38,438 bases of DNA from Thermonema rossianum DSM 10300 (GTDB lineage Bacteria; Bacteroidota; Bacteroidia; Cytophagales; Thermonemataceae). The stretch lies in assembly GCF_000426825.1 (NCBI RefSeq), contig NZ_AUGC01000019.1, forward strand, positions 1 through 38,438, in the 5' to 3' direction. Made by a program: the position numbers and the translations under genes. Every line of letters starts with the position of its first letter. The stretch's first letter is position 1. Positions 15,689-21,625 of the stretch are shown piece by piece. The notes beneath the pieces are model-generated. The model saw nothing but the letters and a program-made list of their open reading frames with translations, was not told the origin of the DNA and did not search any database.

Positions 15689-15880
15689 TTATACTAACTC
15701 AACATTCACAGCGTTCATTCCTCTACGACCTTCTTGCAAGTCGAAGGCTACTTCATCATCTGACCGGATTTCGTCGATAAGTCCACTCACGTGAACAAAA
15801 TACTCTTGATTTGAATCCAAGTCGCGAATGAAACCATAACCTTTAGTTTCATTGAAGAATTTTACAATACCTTTGTACAT
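15689..15880 (-). CDS. Cold-shock protein 1, CspA family
   Basis: This 63-residue protein is a single cold-shock domain. RNP1 is KGYGFI (13-18) and RNP2 is YFVHVS (27-32), the aromatic nucleic-acid-binding face of RNA-chaperone Csp proteins. It differs from cold-shock protein 2 at only three positions: Arg39, Ala45 and Arg53 here against Lys, Thr and Lys. It has its own promoter (15915-15945) and terminator. The predicted 5' leader is only about 28 nt, so the long structured leader of E. coli cspA is absent. Confidence 0.95.
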   Translation of the reverse strand: MYKGIVKFFNETKGYGFIRDLDSNQEYFVHVSGLIDEIRSDDEVAFDLQEGRRGMNAVNVELV

Positions 15881-16054: not shown

Positions 16055-16246
16055 TTATACTAACTCAACATTCACAGCATTCATTCCTTTGCGACCTTCT
16101 TGCAAGTCGAAAGTTACTTCGTCGTCCGACTTGATTTCGTCGATAAGTCCACTCACGTGAACAAAATACTCTTGATTTGAATCCAAGTCGCGAATGAAAC
16201 CATAACCTTTAGTTTCATTGAAGAATTTTACAATACCTTTGTACAT
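16055..16246 (-). CDS. Cold-shock protein 2, CspA family
   Basis: This 63-residue cold-shock domain protein is nearly identical to protein 1 (60 of 63 residues). RNP1 is KGYGFI and RNP2 is YFVHVS. The similarity extends beyond the reading frame: the leader, the -7 and -33 elements and the first bases past the stop codon match gene 1, so the gene and its promoter were copied together, offset 366 bp. It is independently transcribed, with promoter at 16281-16311 and its own strong terminator. Confidence 0.95.
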   Translation of the reverse strand: MYKGIVKFFNETKGYGFIRDLDSNQEYFVHVSGLIDEIKSDDEVTFDLQEGRKGMNAVNVELV

Positions 16247-16417: not shown

Positions 16418-16609
16418 TTACGCTAACTGAACATTCACAGCATTCATTCCTTTGCGACCTTCTTGCAAGTCGAAAGTTACTTCGTCATCCGACTTGATTT
16501 CGTCGATAAGACCGGTAACGTGAACAAAATATTCCTTACCGCTTTCGAGGTCACGAATGAAACCATAACCTTTGGTTTCATTGAAGAATTTTACAATACC
16601 TTTGTACAT
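16418..16609 (-). CDS. Cold-shock protein 3, CspA family
   Basis: This 63-residue cold-shock domain protein is the most divergent of the three: Glu22, Gly24, Lys25, Thr32, Gln61 and Ala63 differ from protein 2. RNP1 (KGYGFI) and RNP2 (YFVHVT) are intact. The open frame continues upstream to 16726, but the promoter at 16642-16671 and alignment with the other two copies fix the start at 16609. It was probably the older copy, with genes 1 and 2 arising later. Confidence 0.95.
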   Translation of the reverse strand: MYKGIVKFFNETKGYGFIRDLESGKEYFVHVTGLIDEIKSDDEVTFDLQEGRKGMNAVNVQLA

Positions 16610-17230: not shown

Positions 17231-20200
17231 TCAATGCACGGGCAGGGCTTTGATGCCCGGCAGGCGATTGAGCGAATCCAGCAGATGCTTGCTTACCGAC
17301 AGTTTGTATTTTTTAGAAAAAGCAGGCACGCTGATTTGCTTTTTGGGGTCAAACAAATGCACTTCCATCCATTTGTCGCCGGCGTAATCTTGTGCCAGTT
17401 TTTCCAGCTTGGGCAGGGTATCCGGGTCGAAGTTGTCCAAATCAATGAGCAGGCGGATGCCTTTCCATGCCTGATTGCGCAACTCGCTGAGGAATTCCAT
17501 TTTTTTGGGTCGGAACTCCCATTGGTCTTGGCTGTTGTAGCGCAGGCGCATTTCTCCTTCGATATAAAGCAGCTGACCATTTTCTACATAAGGCATAAAC
17601 TGTGCATAGTCTTTGCCAAAAAGCGCTATTTGCAGGCTTCCGTGGAAGTCTTCTATGCTGAAAATCATGAAAGGGTTGCCATTTTTGCCCTGCCGGCGGT
17701 TCACCTCGGTAACTACGCCCGCAATGCGAATGGGCTCACTGTGCCCATTGTTTTGGGGTTTATACTCTGCCAGCTCGTCCAAGCGCTTGTTGCAAAGGTG
17801 TTTTACTTCCAGCTCATACATATCGAGGGGGTGCCCCGACAGATAGAAGCCCACCACTTCTTTTTCTTTTTTTAGCTTATACACGGCGCCCCACGGCTCG
17901 CACTGGGGGGCTTTGGGTGGGGGCAGCGCTACATCGCCCTGCATGTCGCCAAAGATAGACTGTTGTGCTTTCAGCTTCTCGGCCTGATAGGCGTTGGCAT
18001 AGCGCAGCAGCTTTTCTATATAGCTTTGTCCGTCTTCTTCGTGAAAATATTGGCTGCGGTCTAAACCGAAGCAGTCGAAAGCGCCGGCCAGTGCCAAGCC
18101 TTCCATGATTTTTTTATTGACCTGTGAAAGGTTGACGCGGCGCACAAAGTCGAAAATATCTTTGAAAGCACCATGCTGACTGCGCTCTTCGATGATGGAA
18201 CGCACGGCGGCTTCGCCTACGCCCTTGATGGCTGCCAGACCGAAACGAATTTCTTTGTCGTTGACAGCCACAAAGTGCACATCACTTTGATTGACATCGG
18301 GACCGAGTACTTCGAGTCCCATGCGGCGGCATTCGGCAAGGAAGAAGTTGATTTTGTCGATGTTGCTCATGTTATGGGTGAGCACCGCCGCCATGTATTC
18401 GGCCGGGTAGTTGGCTTTCAAATAGGCCGTTTGGTAGGCTACGACCGAGTAGGCTGCCGAGTGTGAGCGGTTGAAGCCATACTCGGCAAACTTCGCCATG
18501 ACGTCAAAGATTTCATTGGCTTTTTCTTCGGGTATGTTGTTTTTCTCTTTACAGCCTTTTACAAAGATGGCGCGCTGCTTGTCCATCTCTTCTTTTTTCT
18601 TTTTCCCCATGGCGCGCCGCAGCAGGTCGGCACCGCCCAGCGTATAGCCGGCAAGGACCTGCGCCGCCTGCATGATTTGCTCTTGGTAAACCATGATACC
18701 GAAGGTGTCGCGCAAGATGGGTTCCAGCAGCGGGTGAGGGTATTCCACCGGCTCTTTGCCATGCTTTCGGCGTATATACACCGGAATAAACTGCAAGGGC
18801 CCCGGCCGGTAAAGGGCGTTCATGGCAATGAGGTCTTCTATGTTGGTAGGCTTCAGCTGCCGCAAATACATTTGCATACCTTCCGACTCGAACTGAAAAG
18901 TGCCAATGGTTTCGCCATTTTGATAGAGCTCGAAGGTCTTGGGGTCATCCAAGGGAATGTGGTCTATGTCAATGTCTATGCCCTTGTTTTTCTTGATCAT
19001 GGCAAGGGCATCTTTGATGATGGTAAGGGTCTTGAGCCCGAGAAAGTCCATTTTCAACATCCCGGCATCTTCAATCACCTTGCCATCGAACTGAGTGACC
19101 AGCAAGTTGGTATCTTGTGCCGTACAAACGGGGATATAGTCGGTCAGGTCACCGGGGGCAATGATGATGCCGGCAGCATGCACGCCCCGAGAACGCACCG
19201 AGCCTTCGAGTACCAACGCTTCGCGCAGTACCTTGGCTTTCAGGTCGTTGCTGTTGTATATTTCTTTCAACTCGGGGGTTTCTTCTATAGCCTTTTGCAG
19301 CTTGGTGCCCGGCTTGTCGGGGATGAGCTTTGCCAAAGCATCGGTTTCCTGCAGAGGCAGTTCCAGCACACGCCCTACGTCGCGCACAGCCATTTTGGCG
19401 GCCATGGTGCCATAGGTGATGATGTGCGCCACTTGGTTCCATCCATACTTCTCTACCACGTAATCGATGACACGTTGCCGTCCTTCATCGTCGAAGTCCA
19501 CATCTATATCGGGCATGGATACACGTTCCGGGTTCAGGAATCGTTCGAAAAGCAGGTTGTAACGAATGGGGTCTATATTGGTGATGCCGGTGCAGTAGGC
19601 TACTACCGAGCCGGCTGCCGACCCCCGTCCGGGACCTACGGAAACGCCCAATTGGCGGGCCGCAGCTATGAAGTCTTGCACGATGAGGAAATAGCCCGAG
19701 AAGCCCATGTTTTGAATGATGTTGAGCTCGTAGTTGATGCGCTCTTCTATCTCGGGGGTAATGGTGCCGTAGCGGCGTTTCGCCCCTTCGAAAGTTAAGT
19801 GCCTCAGATACTCGTCCTGGTTTTTGAAACCGGGCGGAATAGGGAAGTGCGGCATCAAGATATCGCGCTTGAGCTGCAGGGTCTCTACCTTGTCATAAAT
19901 TTCATTGGTGAAGTCGAGCGCTTGCGGCACATCGGCAAAGAGCCGGTTCATTTCGGCTTGGGTCTTAAAATAAAATTCGTTGTTGGGGAAGGCAAAGCGC
20001 ATGCCCTTACCTTCGCCCTTGGGGTCGCTTTGCTTGGCACCGGTGTTGATACACAGCAAAATATCGTGGGCGTTCCAATCGTCTTGGTCGAGGTAGTGCG
20101 AATCATTGGTGGCAATGACCTTGAGATTGTATTTTTTAGCCCACCGCAACAAAGTCTGGTTGATGTCTTCTTGGGAAATGCCCGTGCCATCGATGTTTTC

Positions 20201-20752
20201 GAGGTGGTGCCGCTGCAGTTCTATATAGAAATCATCGCCAAAAACATCGATCCACCACTTGAGTTTTTCTTCGGCCGCTGCTTCGCCTTGCCGCAGGATA
20301 GTCTGCGGAATTTCGGCACCGATACAGCAAGAAGTGGCAATCAGCCCTTTGTGGTATTTTACAATCAACTCTTTGTCTATACGCGGGTATTTCGAGTAGT
20401 AGCCTTCAATGAAGCCCAAGGAGCATAACTTTGACAAGTTTTTATAGCCTTCCGCATTTTTGGCCAACAGCAATTGGTGGTAGCGTACATCTTTTTCTTC
20501 CCGGGAAAACTGCTTTTTGTGCCGGTCTTCCACCAAGTAAAATTCGCAGCCCACGATGGGCTTTACACCTTGTTTGTGAGCTTCTGCCACAAACTTGAAC
20601 GCCCCGAACATATTGCCGTGGTCGGTGAGTGCCACGGCTTTCATGCCGTCTTCTTTGGCTTTGCGCATCATGTCTTCGATGCGTGTGGCGCCGTCGAGCA
20701 GTGAGAATTGTGTGTGGCAGTGCAAGTGGATAAAAGGGATAATATCGGACAT
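17231..20752 (-). CDS. dnaE: DNA polymerase III alpha subunit
   Basis: This 1173-residue replicative polymerase is full length. The PHP domain opens the protein, with metal-type residues in HLHCH (9-13) and LTDHGNMFG (42-50). The polymerase core has GPGRGSAAGS (373-382) and the catalytic aspartates in PDIDVDF (Asp415 and Asp417). The third acidic residue is in KMDFLGLKTL. The tandem HhH region and then an OB fold (IRIAGVVTEVNRRQGKNGNPFMIFSIEDFHGSLQIALF, near 1030-1067) complete the C-terminus. It is the DnaE1 type, not PolC, since there is no exonuclease insertion. A -7 octamer lies 96 nt upstream. Confidence 0.97.
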   Translation of the reverse strand: MSDIIPFIHLHCHTQFSLLDGATRIEDMMRKAKEDGMKAVALTDHGNMFGAFKFVAEAHKQGVKPIVGCEFYLVEDRHKKQFSREEKDVRYHQLLLAKNAEGYKNLSKLCSLGFIEGYYSKYPRIDKELIVKYHKGLIATSCCIGAEIPQTILRQGEAAAEEKLKWWIDVFGDDFYIELQRHHLENIDGTGISQEDINQTLLRWAKKYNLKVIATNDSHYLDQDDWNAHDILLCINTGAKQSDPKGEGKGMRFAFPNNEFYFKTQAEMNRLFADVPQALDFTNEIYDKVETLQLKRDILMPHFPIPPGFKNQDEYLRHLTFEGAKRRYGTITPEIEERINYELNIIQNMGFSGYFLIVQDFIAAARQLGVSVGPGRGSAAGSVVAYCTGITNIDPIRYNLLFERFLNPERVSMPDIDVDFDDEGRQRVIDYVVEKYGWNQVAHIITYGTMAAKMAVRDVGRVLELPLQETDALAKLIPDKPGTKLQKAIEETPELKEIYNSNDLKAKVLREALVLEGSVRSRGVHAAGIIIAPGDLTDYIPVCTAQDTNLLVTQFDGKVIEDAGMLKMDFLGLKTLTIIKDALAMIKKNKGIDIDIDHIPLDDPKTFELYQNGETIGTFQFESEGMQMYLRQLKPTNIEDLIAMNALYRPGPLQFIPVYIRRKHGKEPVEYPHPLLEPILRDTFGIMVYQEQIMQAAQVLAGYTLGGADLLRRAMGKKKKEEMDKQRAIFVKGCKEKNNIPEEKANEIFDVMAKFAEYGFNRSHSAAYSVVAYQTAYLKANYPAEYMAAVLTHNMSNIDKINFFLAECRRMGLEVLGPDVNQSDVHFVAVNDKEIRFGLAAIKGVGEAAVRSIIEERSQHGAFKDIFDFVRRVNLSQVNKKIMEGLALAGAFDCFGLDRSQYFHEEDGQSYIEKLLRYANAYQAEKLKAQQSIFGDMQGDVALPPPKAPQCEPWGAVYKLKKEKEVVGFYLSGHPLDMYELEVKHLCNKRLDELAEYKPQNNGHSEPIRIAGVVTEVNRRQGKNGNPFMIFSIEDFHGSLQIALFGKDYAQFMPYVENGQLLYIEGEMRLRYNSQDQWEFRPKKMEFLSELRNQAWKGIRLLIDLDNFDPDTLPKLEKLAQDYAGDKWMEVHLFDPKKQISVPAFSKKYKLSVSKHLLDSLNRLPGIKALPVH

Positions 20753-20847
20753 GGCTTACAGCTTGCTTTTGGTGAATACGGGTACTCAGACAATGAAGAG
20801 AAAAGTGCCGGCGTAGGGGTAAAGATACTTGGCTTTATAGGAACAGG

Positions 20848-20855
20848 CAAAAGTA
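20848..20855 (-). promoter_or_regulatory. -7 element for dnaE
   Basis: The minus strand reads TACTTTTG, a perfect TAnnTTTG, 96 nt before the dnaE ATG and downstream of the minus-strand terminator at 20898-20930. No -33 TTG was found. Confidence 0.4.
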
Positions 20856-20897
20856 CGAAATTTTGAGCTGAAGCGTATTTTTTGAGAGGCACAAAAC

Positions 20898-20930
20898 AAA
20901 AAAGCCCCCCGCAGAGCAGAGAGCTTTTTT
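20898..20930 (-). terminator. Minus-strand intrinsic terminator with no annotated gene in front of it
   Basis: In minus-strand RNA, 20930-20916 pairs with 20912-20898 as a 15-bp stem with three G-U pairs and a 3-nt loop, then a T-rich run (TTTTTTGTTTTG). In plus-strand RNA the three G-U pairs become A-C mismatches, so selection is for minus-strand transcription. The only minus-strand sequence available upstream is non-coding (20931-21091) or antisense to the DinB-like gene. Confidence 0.7.
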
Positions 20931-20992
20931 CCAAAAAATTATGAAAAACCAACTGAAAAATGAAACAGTTGATGCGCTGCTTCTTTTTTAGA

Positions 20993-21068
20993 TTCGTTCT
21001 TATTAACGAAGAGCAAGCCGTGAAAGTTTCATGCTTGCAGATTAGGCGACTTTCGTTATCTTAACGAA
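20993..21068. promoter_or_regulatory. Pair of TTCGTT/AACGAA dyads upstream of the DinB-like gene
   Basis: TTCGTT-N6-AACGAA lies at 20993-21010 and TTCGTT-N5-AACGAA at 21052-21068, 41 nt apart. Each alone looks like a binding site for a dimeric repressor. They also pair with one another, which is why the same bases appear in the candidate RNA fold. The second dyad ends 23 nt before the DinB-like start codon. No plus-strand TAnnTTTG was found in the interval. Confidence 0.45.
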
Positions 21069-21091
21069 TCAAACGCCAAAAATATTTCATC

Positions 21092-21625
21092 ATGGAGCAT
21101 ACACTTCGCACTTCCCGTATTCGCATAACTGACTGGGGGCAGCAATACCATCATTACATACAGCTTTTAGACGATGACCTGTTGTTGAGCCTGCGCAAGA
21201 ACCGGGAGGAAGTGAACCGTTTGTTGGGCAACCTGACCGACGAGCAGGCTGCCTATGCCTATGCACCCGGCAAATGGTCTATCAAGGAGGTGCTGGGGCA
21301 CATCATTGATGCCGAGCGTGTGATGAGCTACAGGGCTATGTGCATTGCCCGTGGCGAAAAGCAAACTTTGCCCGGTTTCGATGAAGACGACTATGTGGCA
21401 GAAGCACAGTTTGCGCGCCGTTCTATGCGCTCACTGCTCGATGAATTCAACCATTTGCGCCATGCCAATATGTGTTTGTTTGAAAGCTTCGATGAAACTG
21501 TGCTTGCCCGGCGTGGCATAGCCAATGGGGTGGAGGTGAGTGTCTTGGCCCTTTGTGCCGTTGTGGCAGGCCATGCCATCCATCATGTGAACGTACTCAA
21601 AGAAAAATATTTACCTGTTATATAA
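21092..21625 (+). CDS. DinB/YfiT-like four-helix protein, putative metal-dependent enzyme
   Basis: This 177-residue protein fits the DinB_2/YfiT superfamily. The metal ligands are recognisable as His70 (EVLGHIIDAER) and the GHAIHHV block near the C-terminus (His161 and His165). The APGKWSIKEVLGHI opening is the typical first motif. Members include thiol transferases and hydrolases using small thiols such as bacillithiol; the name DinB comes from the B. subtilis damage-inducible gene and does not mean polymerase IV. Substrate unknown. It is preceded by two dyads and is followed 30 nt later by the amidohydrolase gene. Confidence 0.85.
   Translation: MEHTLRTSRIRITDWGQQYHHYIQLLDDDLLLSLRKNREEVNRLLGNLTDEQAAYAYAPGKWSIKEVLGHIIDAERVMSYRAMCIARGEKQTLPGFDEDDYVAEAQFARRSMRSLLDEFNHLRHANMCLFESFDETVLARRGIANGVEVSVLALCAVVAGHAIHHVNVLKEKYLPVI

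Follow-up and report, generated by a model that had tools for sequence, protein, structure and literature searches.

The window analysed here is the whole 38,438 nt stretch of contig NZ_AUGC01000019.1 from Thermonema rossianum DSM 10300 (genome G000). It includes an intergenic region (20753-21091), between dnaE and a gene of the DinB superfamily, that contains a putative small RNA gene with the features listed in Table 1. The same arrangement of dnaE, the element and a DinB-type gene is found in G001, the one other genome of the genus met. The element shares 0.90 identity with its counterpart in G001 over 178 nt, while identity over the whole intergenic region is only 0.78. When coding sequence is included, 1591 of the 38259 segments of that size match this level. 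Among noncoding segments compared between the two genomes, the best 100 nt of the element (0.94) exceeds all 1496 others and the best 150 nt (0.913) all 913 others, while the best 80 nt is equalled by 7 of 1772. Five differences between G000 and G001 fall on paired bases, and 4 of these preserve the minus-strand pair.

Table 1. Position, strand and basis of features at the dnaE-DinB intergenic region.
Feature	Position	Strand	Remarks
dnaE, DNA polymerase III alpha, neighbour	17231..20752	minus	no target on the evidence here
Conserved -7 box TACTTTTG, probably the promoter of dnaE itself	20848..20855	minus	3' of terminator; no -33 TTG
Intrinsic terminator	20898..20930	minus	15 bp, 3 nt loop, T-rich tail
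Predicted small RNA, ~173 nt	20898..21070	minus	promoter to terminator, G001 identity, fold
20 nt motif AGTTGGTTTTTCATAATTTT, candidate pairing region	20935..20954	minus	complementary to A-rich start-codon contexts
16-codon ORF MKNQLKNETVDALLLF	20941..20991	plus	by eye; same peptide in G001, 2 synonymous changes
Second hairpin ATCAACTG / CAGTTGGT	20948..20973	minus	3' arm overlaps 20 nt motif; identical in G001
Extended stem-loop at the 5' end (8 bp, 7 bp and an apical hairpin), alternatively two local hairpins	20991..21070	minus	this genus only
Dyad TTCGTT-N6-AACGAA	20993..21010	unstranded	first unique dyad; may be an operator, or only arms of the RNA stem
Dyad TTCGTTA-N3-TAACGAA	21052..21068	unstranded	second unique dyad
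-7 promoter element TATTTTTG	21077..21084	minus	perfect TAnnTTTG, conserved in G001; without -33 TTG
DinB-superfamily gene, neighbour	21092..21625	plus	

The terminator hairpin, originally described as 15 bp with three G-U pairs, a 3 nt loop and a T-run, was borne out pair by pair, and its three U-G pairs, listed singly, are A-C on the plus strand. Four terminator-like sites occur in 20700-21200 as against 0.7 in shuffled sequences, and three of the four are this hairpin or are nested inside it. The window as a whole includes 11 terminator-like sites with at least 10 pairs. Eight of the other 10 lie directly 3' of a same-strand stop codon and two lie within genes, leaving 20898-20930 as the sole intergenic site with no gene preceding it (comparison with the ORFs by eye), and the original statement that no minus-strand gene stands before the hairpin holds.

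The perfect -7 octamer predicted at 21084-21077 is present as TATTTTTG and is kept in G001. TAnnTTTG octamers are common in the window (45, with 29.6 expected), and TATTTTTG alone therefore says little. As already stated in the original prediction, a -33 TTG is absent, none being found within 36 nt upstream of TATTTTTG. Three cold-shock gene promoters in the window, unlike the putative promoter of the small RNA, carry TTG-N19/20-TACCTTTG. These belong to three tandem, near-identical cold-shock-like genes (identified by eye) on the minus strand at 15689-15880, 16055-16246 and 16418-16609, each preceded by a separate TACCTTTG promoter and followed by a terminator-like hairpin. In the family sample of 8 genomes (G000 to G007), a perfect TAnnTTTG is found within 200 nt before the 20 nt motif in G000, G001, G003 and G004 only, and is at least 101 nt away in the last two.

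A 185 nt minus-strand piece folds with a z-score of -3.4, and 3 of 200 shuffles fold equally well. The stem-loop at 20991-21070, which had been predicted to begin at the transcription start, does start there and appears both in the 185 nt fold and when folded alone, but it is broken in the lowest-energy fold of the assumed 173 nt transcript of G000, which splits the long stem into local hairpins. The long stem is retained in the assumed transcript of G001. In an 82 nt piece the long-range fold dominates, with outer-stem probabilities of 0.987 and 0.992 at 37 C, and of 0.976 for the plus strand.

A covariance search of related genomes, proposed with the original prediction as a check, gave a strong match in G001 and none beyond the genus. 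The model of the whole RNA (R1), run on 291 genomes of the order, matched strongly in G000 and G001 only; the others were weak, at up to 41 bits, and 59 of the 291 genomes had matches at E ≤0.05. Six of the R1 alignments were inspected, and all except that of G005 were judged to be terminator or coding matches. A model without the terminator (R2) scored 162 bits in G000 and 159 bits in G001 among 39 relatives, the next being G006 with 20 bits. In 395 genomes of the phylum, R2 gave one match besides G000, of 32 bits, which was judged to be chance. No Rfam family reached its cut-off in the window. At E ≤10 the element had 16 Rfam matches, the best being Thr_leader (E 0.0048, 26.2 bits against a cut-off of 55), an identity that was rejected as the alignment is below cut-off and rests mainly on the terminator.

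The weak covariance matches in G003 and G005, which belong to the same family, led to recognition of a shared 20 nt stretch, AGTTGTTTTTTCATAATTTT, before the terminator. Among the loci compared before the pattern search, G003 and G005 were the only ones outside the genus to carry this motif free of mismatches. In the window, the motif AGTTGKTTTTTCATAATTTT sits 4 nt before the terminator stem. The motif was searched for in genomes of the order and in viral contigs, and in 390 order genomes was found at 66 places in 55 genomes when up to one mismatch was allowed. G000 has one such site, as does G001. Exact motifs were present in 7 of the 8 family genomes (G000 to G006), with one exact copy in each, and in 2 of the 382 other genomes of the order (Fisher p ~1e-12, with genomes treated as independent); in G007 the motif is absent even at one mismatch.

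Hairpins were inspected at 51 of the 66 places, comprising all 7 in the family and 44 of the 59 others. Each of the 7 family motifs is followed, after 4 to 6 nt, by a terminator-type hairpin of 15 to 16 positions with a loop of 3 to 4 nt; the fold energies across 50 nt are -14.4 to -27.7 kcal/mol. At the 44 other places, no uninterrupted stem after the motif exceeds 9 pairs (by eye; folds of -1.1 to -15.4). The two exact motifs outside the family are the starts of ordinary protein genes, of 193 and 210 aa, with no terminator hairpin. All 13 exact matches in viral contigs are likewise starts of ORFs, of 43 to 155 aa, without a comparable hairpin, and spread of the module by phages was rejected on this ground. 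A derivation of the motif from a start codon must be considered, as its exact copies outside the family are real start codons. Between G004 and G006, 130 of 141 columns agree from promoter to terminator, compared with 82 of 105 before this region and 62 of 75 after it.

Pairing in the terminator also indicates the strand. With arms placed by hand and read in the direction from motif to terminator, the 15 pairs in 7 family genomes give 105 cells, of which 94 are Watson-Crick, 10 are G-U, none is A-C and one, in G003, is U-U. Across the 7 genomes 13 of the 15 pairs vary and, allowing for the kinship of G000 with G001 and of G004 with G006, there were about 7 separate G-U events and none of the opposite kind. 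The stem of G002 is one pair longer and its U tract is poor. The excess of G-U over A-C cells suggests that the RNA most likely runs on the minus strand of the window, in agreement with the earlier claim that minus-strand transcription shaped the hairpin.

The locus is probably best explained as an independent gene on the minus strand for a small RNA of ~173 nt, with its own promoter and terminator, and as a member of a small RNA family that extends across the taxonomic family. The presence of the element, its conservation, strand bias and terminator, and its independence from dnaE are all evident in the sequences compared. Transcription, which we infer, would start near 21070 from the element's own promoter and end near 20898 at the intrinsic terminator. 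The 3' module common to the family consists of AGUUGKUUUUUCAUAAUUUU, 4 to 6 nt and the terminator hairpin of 15 to 16 positions, while the 5' part, predicted in this genus to be the 80 nt stem-loop and the second hairpin, differs by genus, as does the place in the genome.

An alternative for the 5' part, though an unlikely one, is that the stem-loop is a pair of DNA operators for a repressor of the DinB gene and small RNA promoters and not an RNA structure. G000 and G001 each contain exactly two copies of the dyad, confined to this locus and spaced 58.5 bp apart in both genomes, and one copy covers a possible plus-strand promoter of the DinB gene, TTG-N19-TATCTTAA (by eye). Operators would also fit the fold of lowest energy for the whole assumed transcript of G000, in which two local hairpins replace the long stem. 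However, no regulator gene adjoins the locus (by eye), and the outer stem includes two pairs beyond those expected of a dyad, one of them kept as G-U in G001. The dominance of the long-range fold in the 82 nt piece also speaks for RNA structure, though it holds for the plus strand too. Operators and a small RNA are compatible and can both be true.

It is improbable that the motif instead marks a leader peptide, MK[KN]QL..., translated from the plus strand ahead of the DinB gene, the stem-loop being the attenuator. An ORF of 11 to 32 codons starts within the motif in all 7 genomes, the 16 aa peptide is identical in G001 with both nucleotide changes synonymous, and at other places the exact motif coincides with genuine start codons of MKKQL or MKNQL proteins. 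However, genera have nothing in common beyond MK[KN]QL, and 2 of the 3 changes between G004 and G006 alter the peptide (by eye). The hairpin would also stand directly before the start codon, and the 10 G-U pairs without exception point to the other strand. In G000 to G003, no gene on the strand of the motif ORF was seen ending at the hairpin.

The original prediction had left open whether the element is a small RNA or a dnaE leader, in which transcription from 21070 would reach dnaE or not as decided by the terminator. In favour of a leader, no gene separates the terminator from dnaE, which follows it on the same strand, and the arrangement in G001 is the same. Nevertheless, the module is linked to dnaE only in these two genomes. 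In G002 to G006 dnaE is not in the flanks of the module (1 to 1.5 kb seen), and in G003 to G007 the module is not in the 420 nt before dnaE; the dnaE start of G002 is cut by a contig end, so its upstream region is lacking from this comparison. DnaE relatives from genome contigs (at most 62% identical) were left out. In G002 the module adjoins an SmpB-like gene and an ORF of beta-barrel-like type (identified by eye in both cases), in G003 it lies between genes for an NMN transporter and a ferredoxin-type protein, and in G004, G005 and G006 a PAP2 gene is nearby (Pfam for G005 and G006). In the last three genomes the next gene downstream is oppositely oriented and ends at the hairpin. In addition, the conserved TACTTTTG lies between the terminator and dnaE, and the remaining leader is poorly conserved. 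As the neighbours vary between genera and the downstream gene is reversed in three genomes, the dnaE attenuator reading fails and is highly improbable, while the small RNA half of the original prediction is strongly supported by conservation, strand-biased pairing and the shared 3' module in 7 of 8 family genomes.

No same-strand gene precedes the terminator in G000 and G001, nor in G002, G003 and G005 within the 1 to 1.5 kb seen. G004 and G006 have a gene on the same strand whose end is ~130 nt before the motif, and there the hairpin could be the terminator of that gene and the RNA a 3'-UTR product. An outer-membrane-type gene adjoins the small RNA locus in G005 (L108:1616-2182) and in G002 (L242, reverse strand 1172-1870), which may be coincidence.

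A diverged housekeeping RNA, 6S RNA or similar, is very improbable. In its favour, no 6S RNA was found elsewhere (RF00013 has no match in G000, RF01685 none in G000 or G001). Against it, the window has no Rfam match at cut-off, no 6S family is among the 16 matches of the element at E ≤10, and no closing stem joins the 5' and 3' ends in the fold of the 185 nt piece. As an observation on the genome itself, RF00013 and RF01685 identify no 6S RNA in G000, though one exists in Bacteroides (PMC7366714) and in Flavobacterium; these models may be too weak here, RF01685 having reached its cut-off in none of 14 control genomes.

For the small RNA, the motif suggests how targets may be recognised. According to PMC6847099, Bacteroidetes lack Shine-Dalgarno sequences and prefer A upstream of the start codon, and such an A-rich start-codon context, AAAATTATGAAAAAACAACT, is the complement of the motif. 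The RNA probably works in trans by base-pairing near start codons, with the motif as a seed that would pair with A-rich start-codon regions (AAAAUUAUGAAAAA) and block initiation of translation. The motif is predicted to be unpaired with a probability of 0.34 to 0.68 in the assumed transcripts, and of 0.13 to 0.52 with 100 nt of upstream sequence included. The best candidate target would be a DUF3575 gene of outer-membrane type (L003:1508-2068; G000 contig 9, from 49615 onward), in which 17 nt over the start codon match the motif as a perfect complement. Within G000, the 14-mer AAAATTATGAAAAA has just two occurrences, one in the RNA and the other where this gene starts. Pairing is predicted at -18.7 kcal/mol in G000, at -11.7 for the ortholog in G001 and at -8.5, an ordinary value, in G005.

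Enrichment was assessed in 438 kb of the 2.95 Mb G000 genome, using 332 start windows and 1500 of 2373 internal Met codons under a longest-ORF rule. In this sample start windows were not better complements of the motif than internal Met codons (means -7.80 and -7.76); 51 of 100 shuffled motifs complemented start windows as well, and 15 of 100 reached the difference. A general start-codon seed was therefore unsupported in the sample. Given the weaker pairing in G001 and G005 and this negative enrichment, the target side, including the DUF3575 gene, is only a lead. A broader proposal, that the invariant 3' motif is a general antisense to the start-codon context AAAAUUAUGAAAAAACAACU of envelope genes in bacteria without Shine-Dalgarno sequences, with 5' halves freely exchanged between genera, is speculative and is given little weight.

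The closest systems by description include GibS, FopS and the Rfp small RNAs of Flavobacterium psychrophilum (PMC9723704). GibS and FopS are Bacteroides small RNA groups described as repressing by start-codon binding (PMC7366714, PMC11697453). GibS, a trans-acting small RNA of Bacteroides thetaiotaomicron, is reported in PMC7366714 to be intergenic like the element and of similar length (145 nt), with hairpins at first, then a linear region and finally an intrinsic terminator. Its conserved seed pairs with translation initiation regions, whereas the targets here are only candidates, and the seed of GibS lies in the 5' part while the conserved stretch here adjoins the terminator. In FopS, as described in PMC11697453, a conserved stretch is also followed by an intrinsic terminator, and binding is near the start codon of mRNAs for outer-membrane transporters. 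However, FopS has 12 to 15 paralogs per genome in Bacteroides species (PMC11697453), compared with one exact copy per genome here. Rfam scans at E ≤10 or 0.5 gave no FopS match, and the Rfam copy used may not contain a FopS model.

The element looks like a so far undescribed RNA gene that founds a family-wide small RNA family. A literature search on Cytophagales small RNAs found no paper, and "undescribed" rests on such searches and on Rfam. The Bacteroidota small RNA papers found concern Bacteroides and Flavobacterium, and the element would add another lineage of the phylum. A short invariant motif plus a terminator would define the RNA family, which one pattern search suffices to trace. Since Bacteroidetes are described as lacking Shine-Dalgarno sequences (PMC6847099), a conserved RNA able to pair with the A-rich surroundings of start codons would open a new form of translational control to testing.
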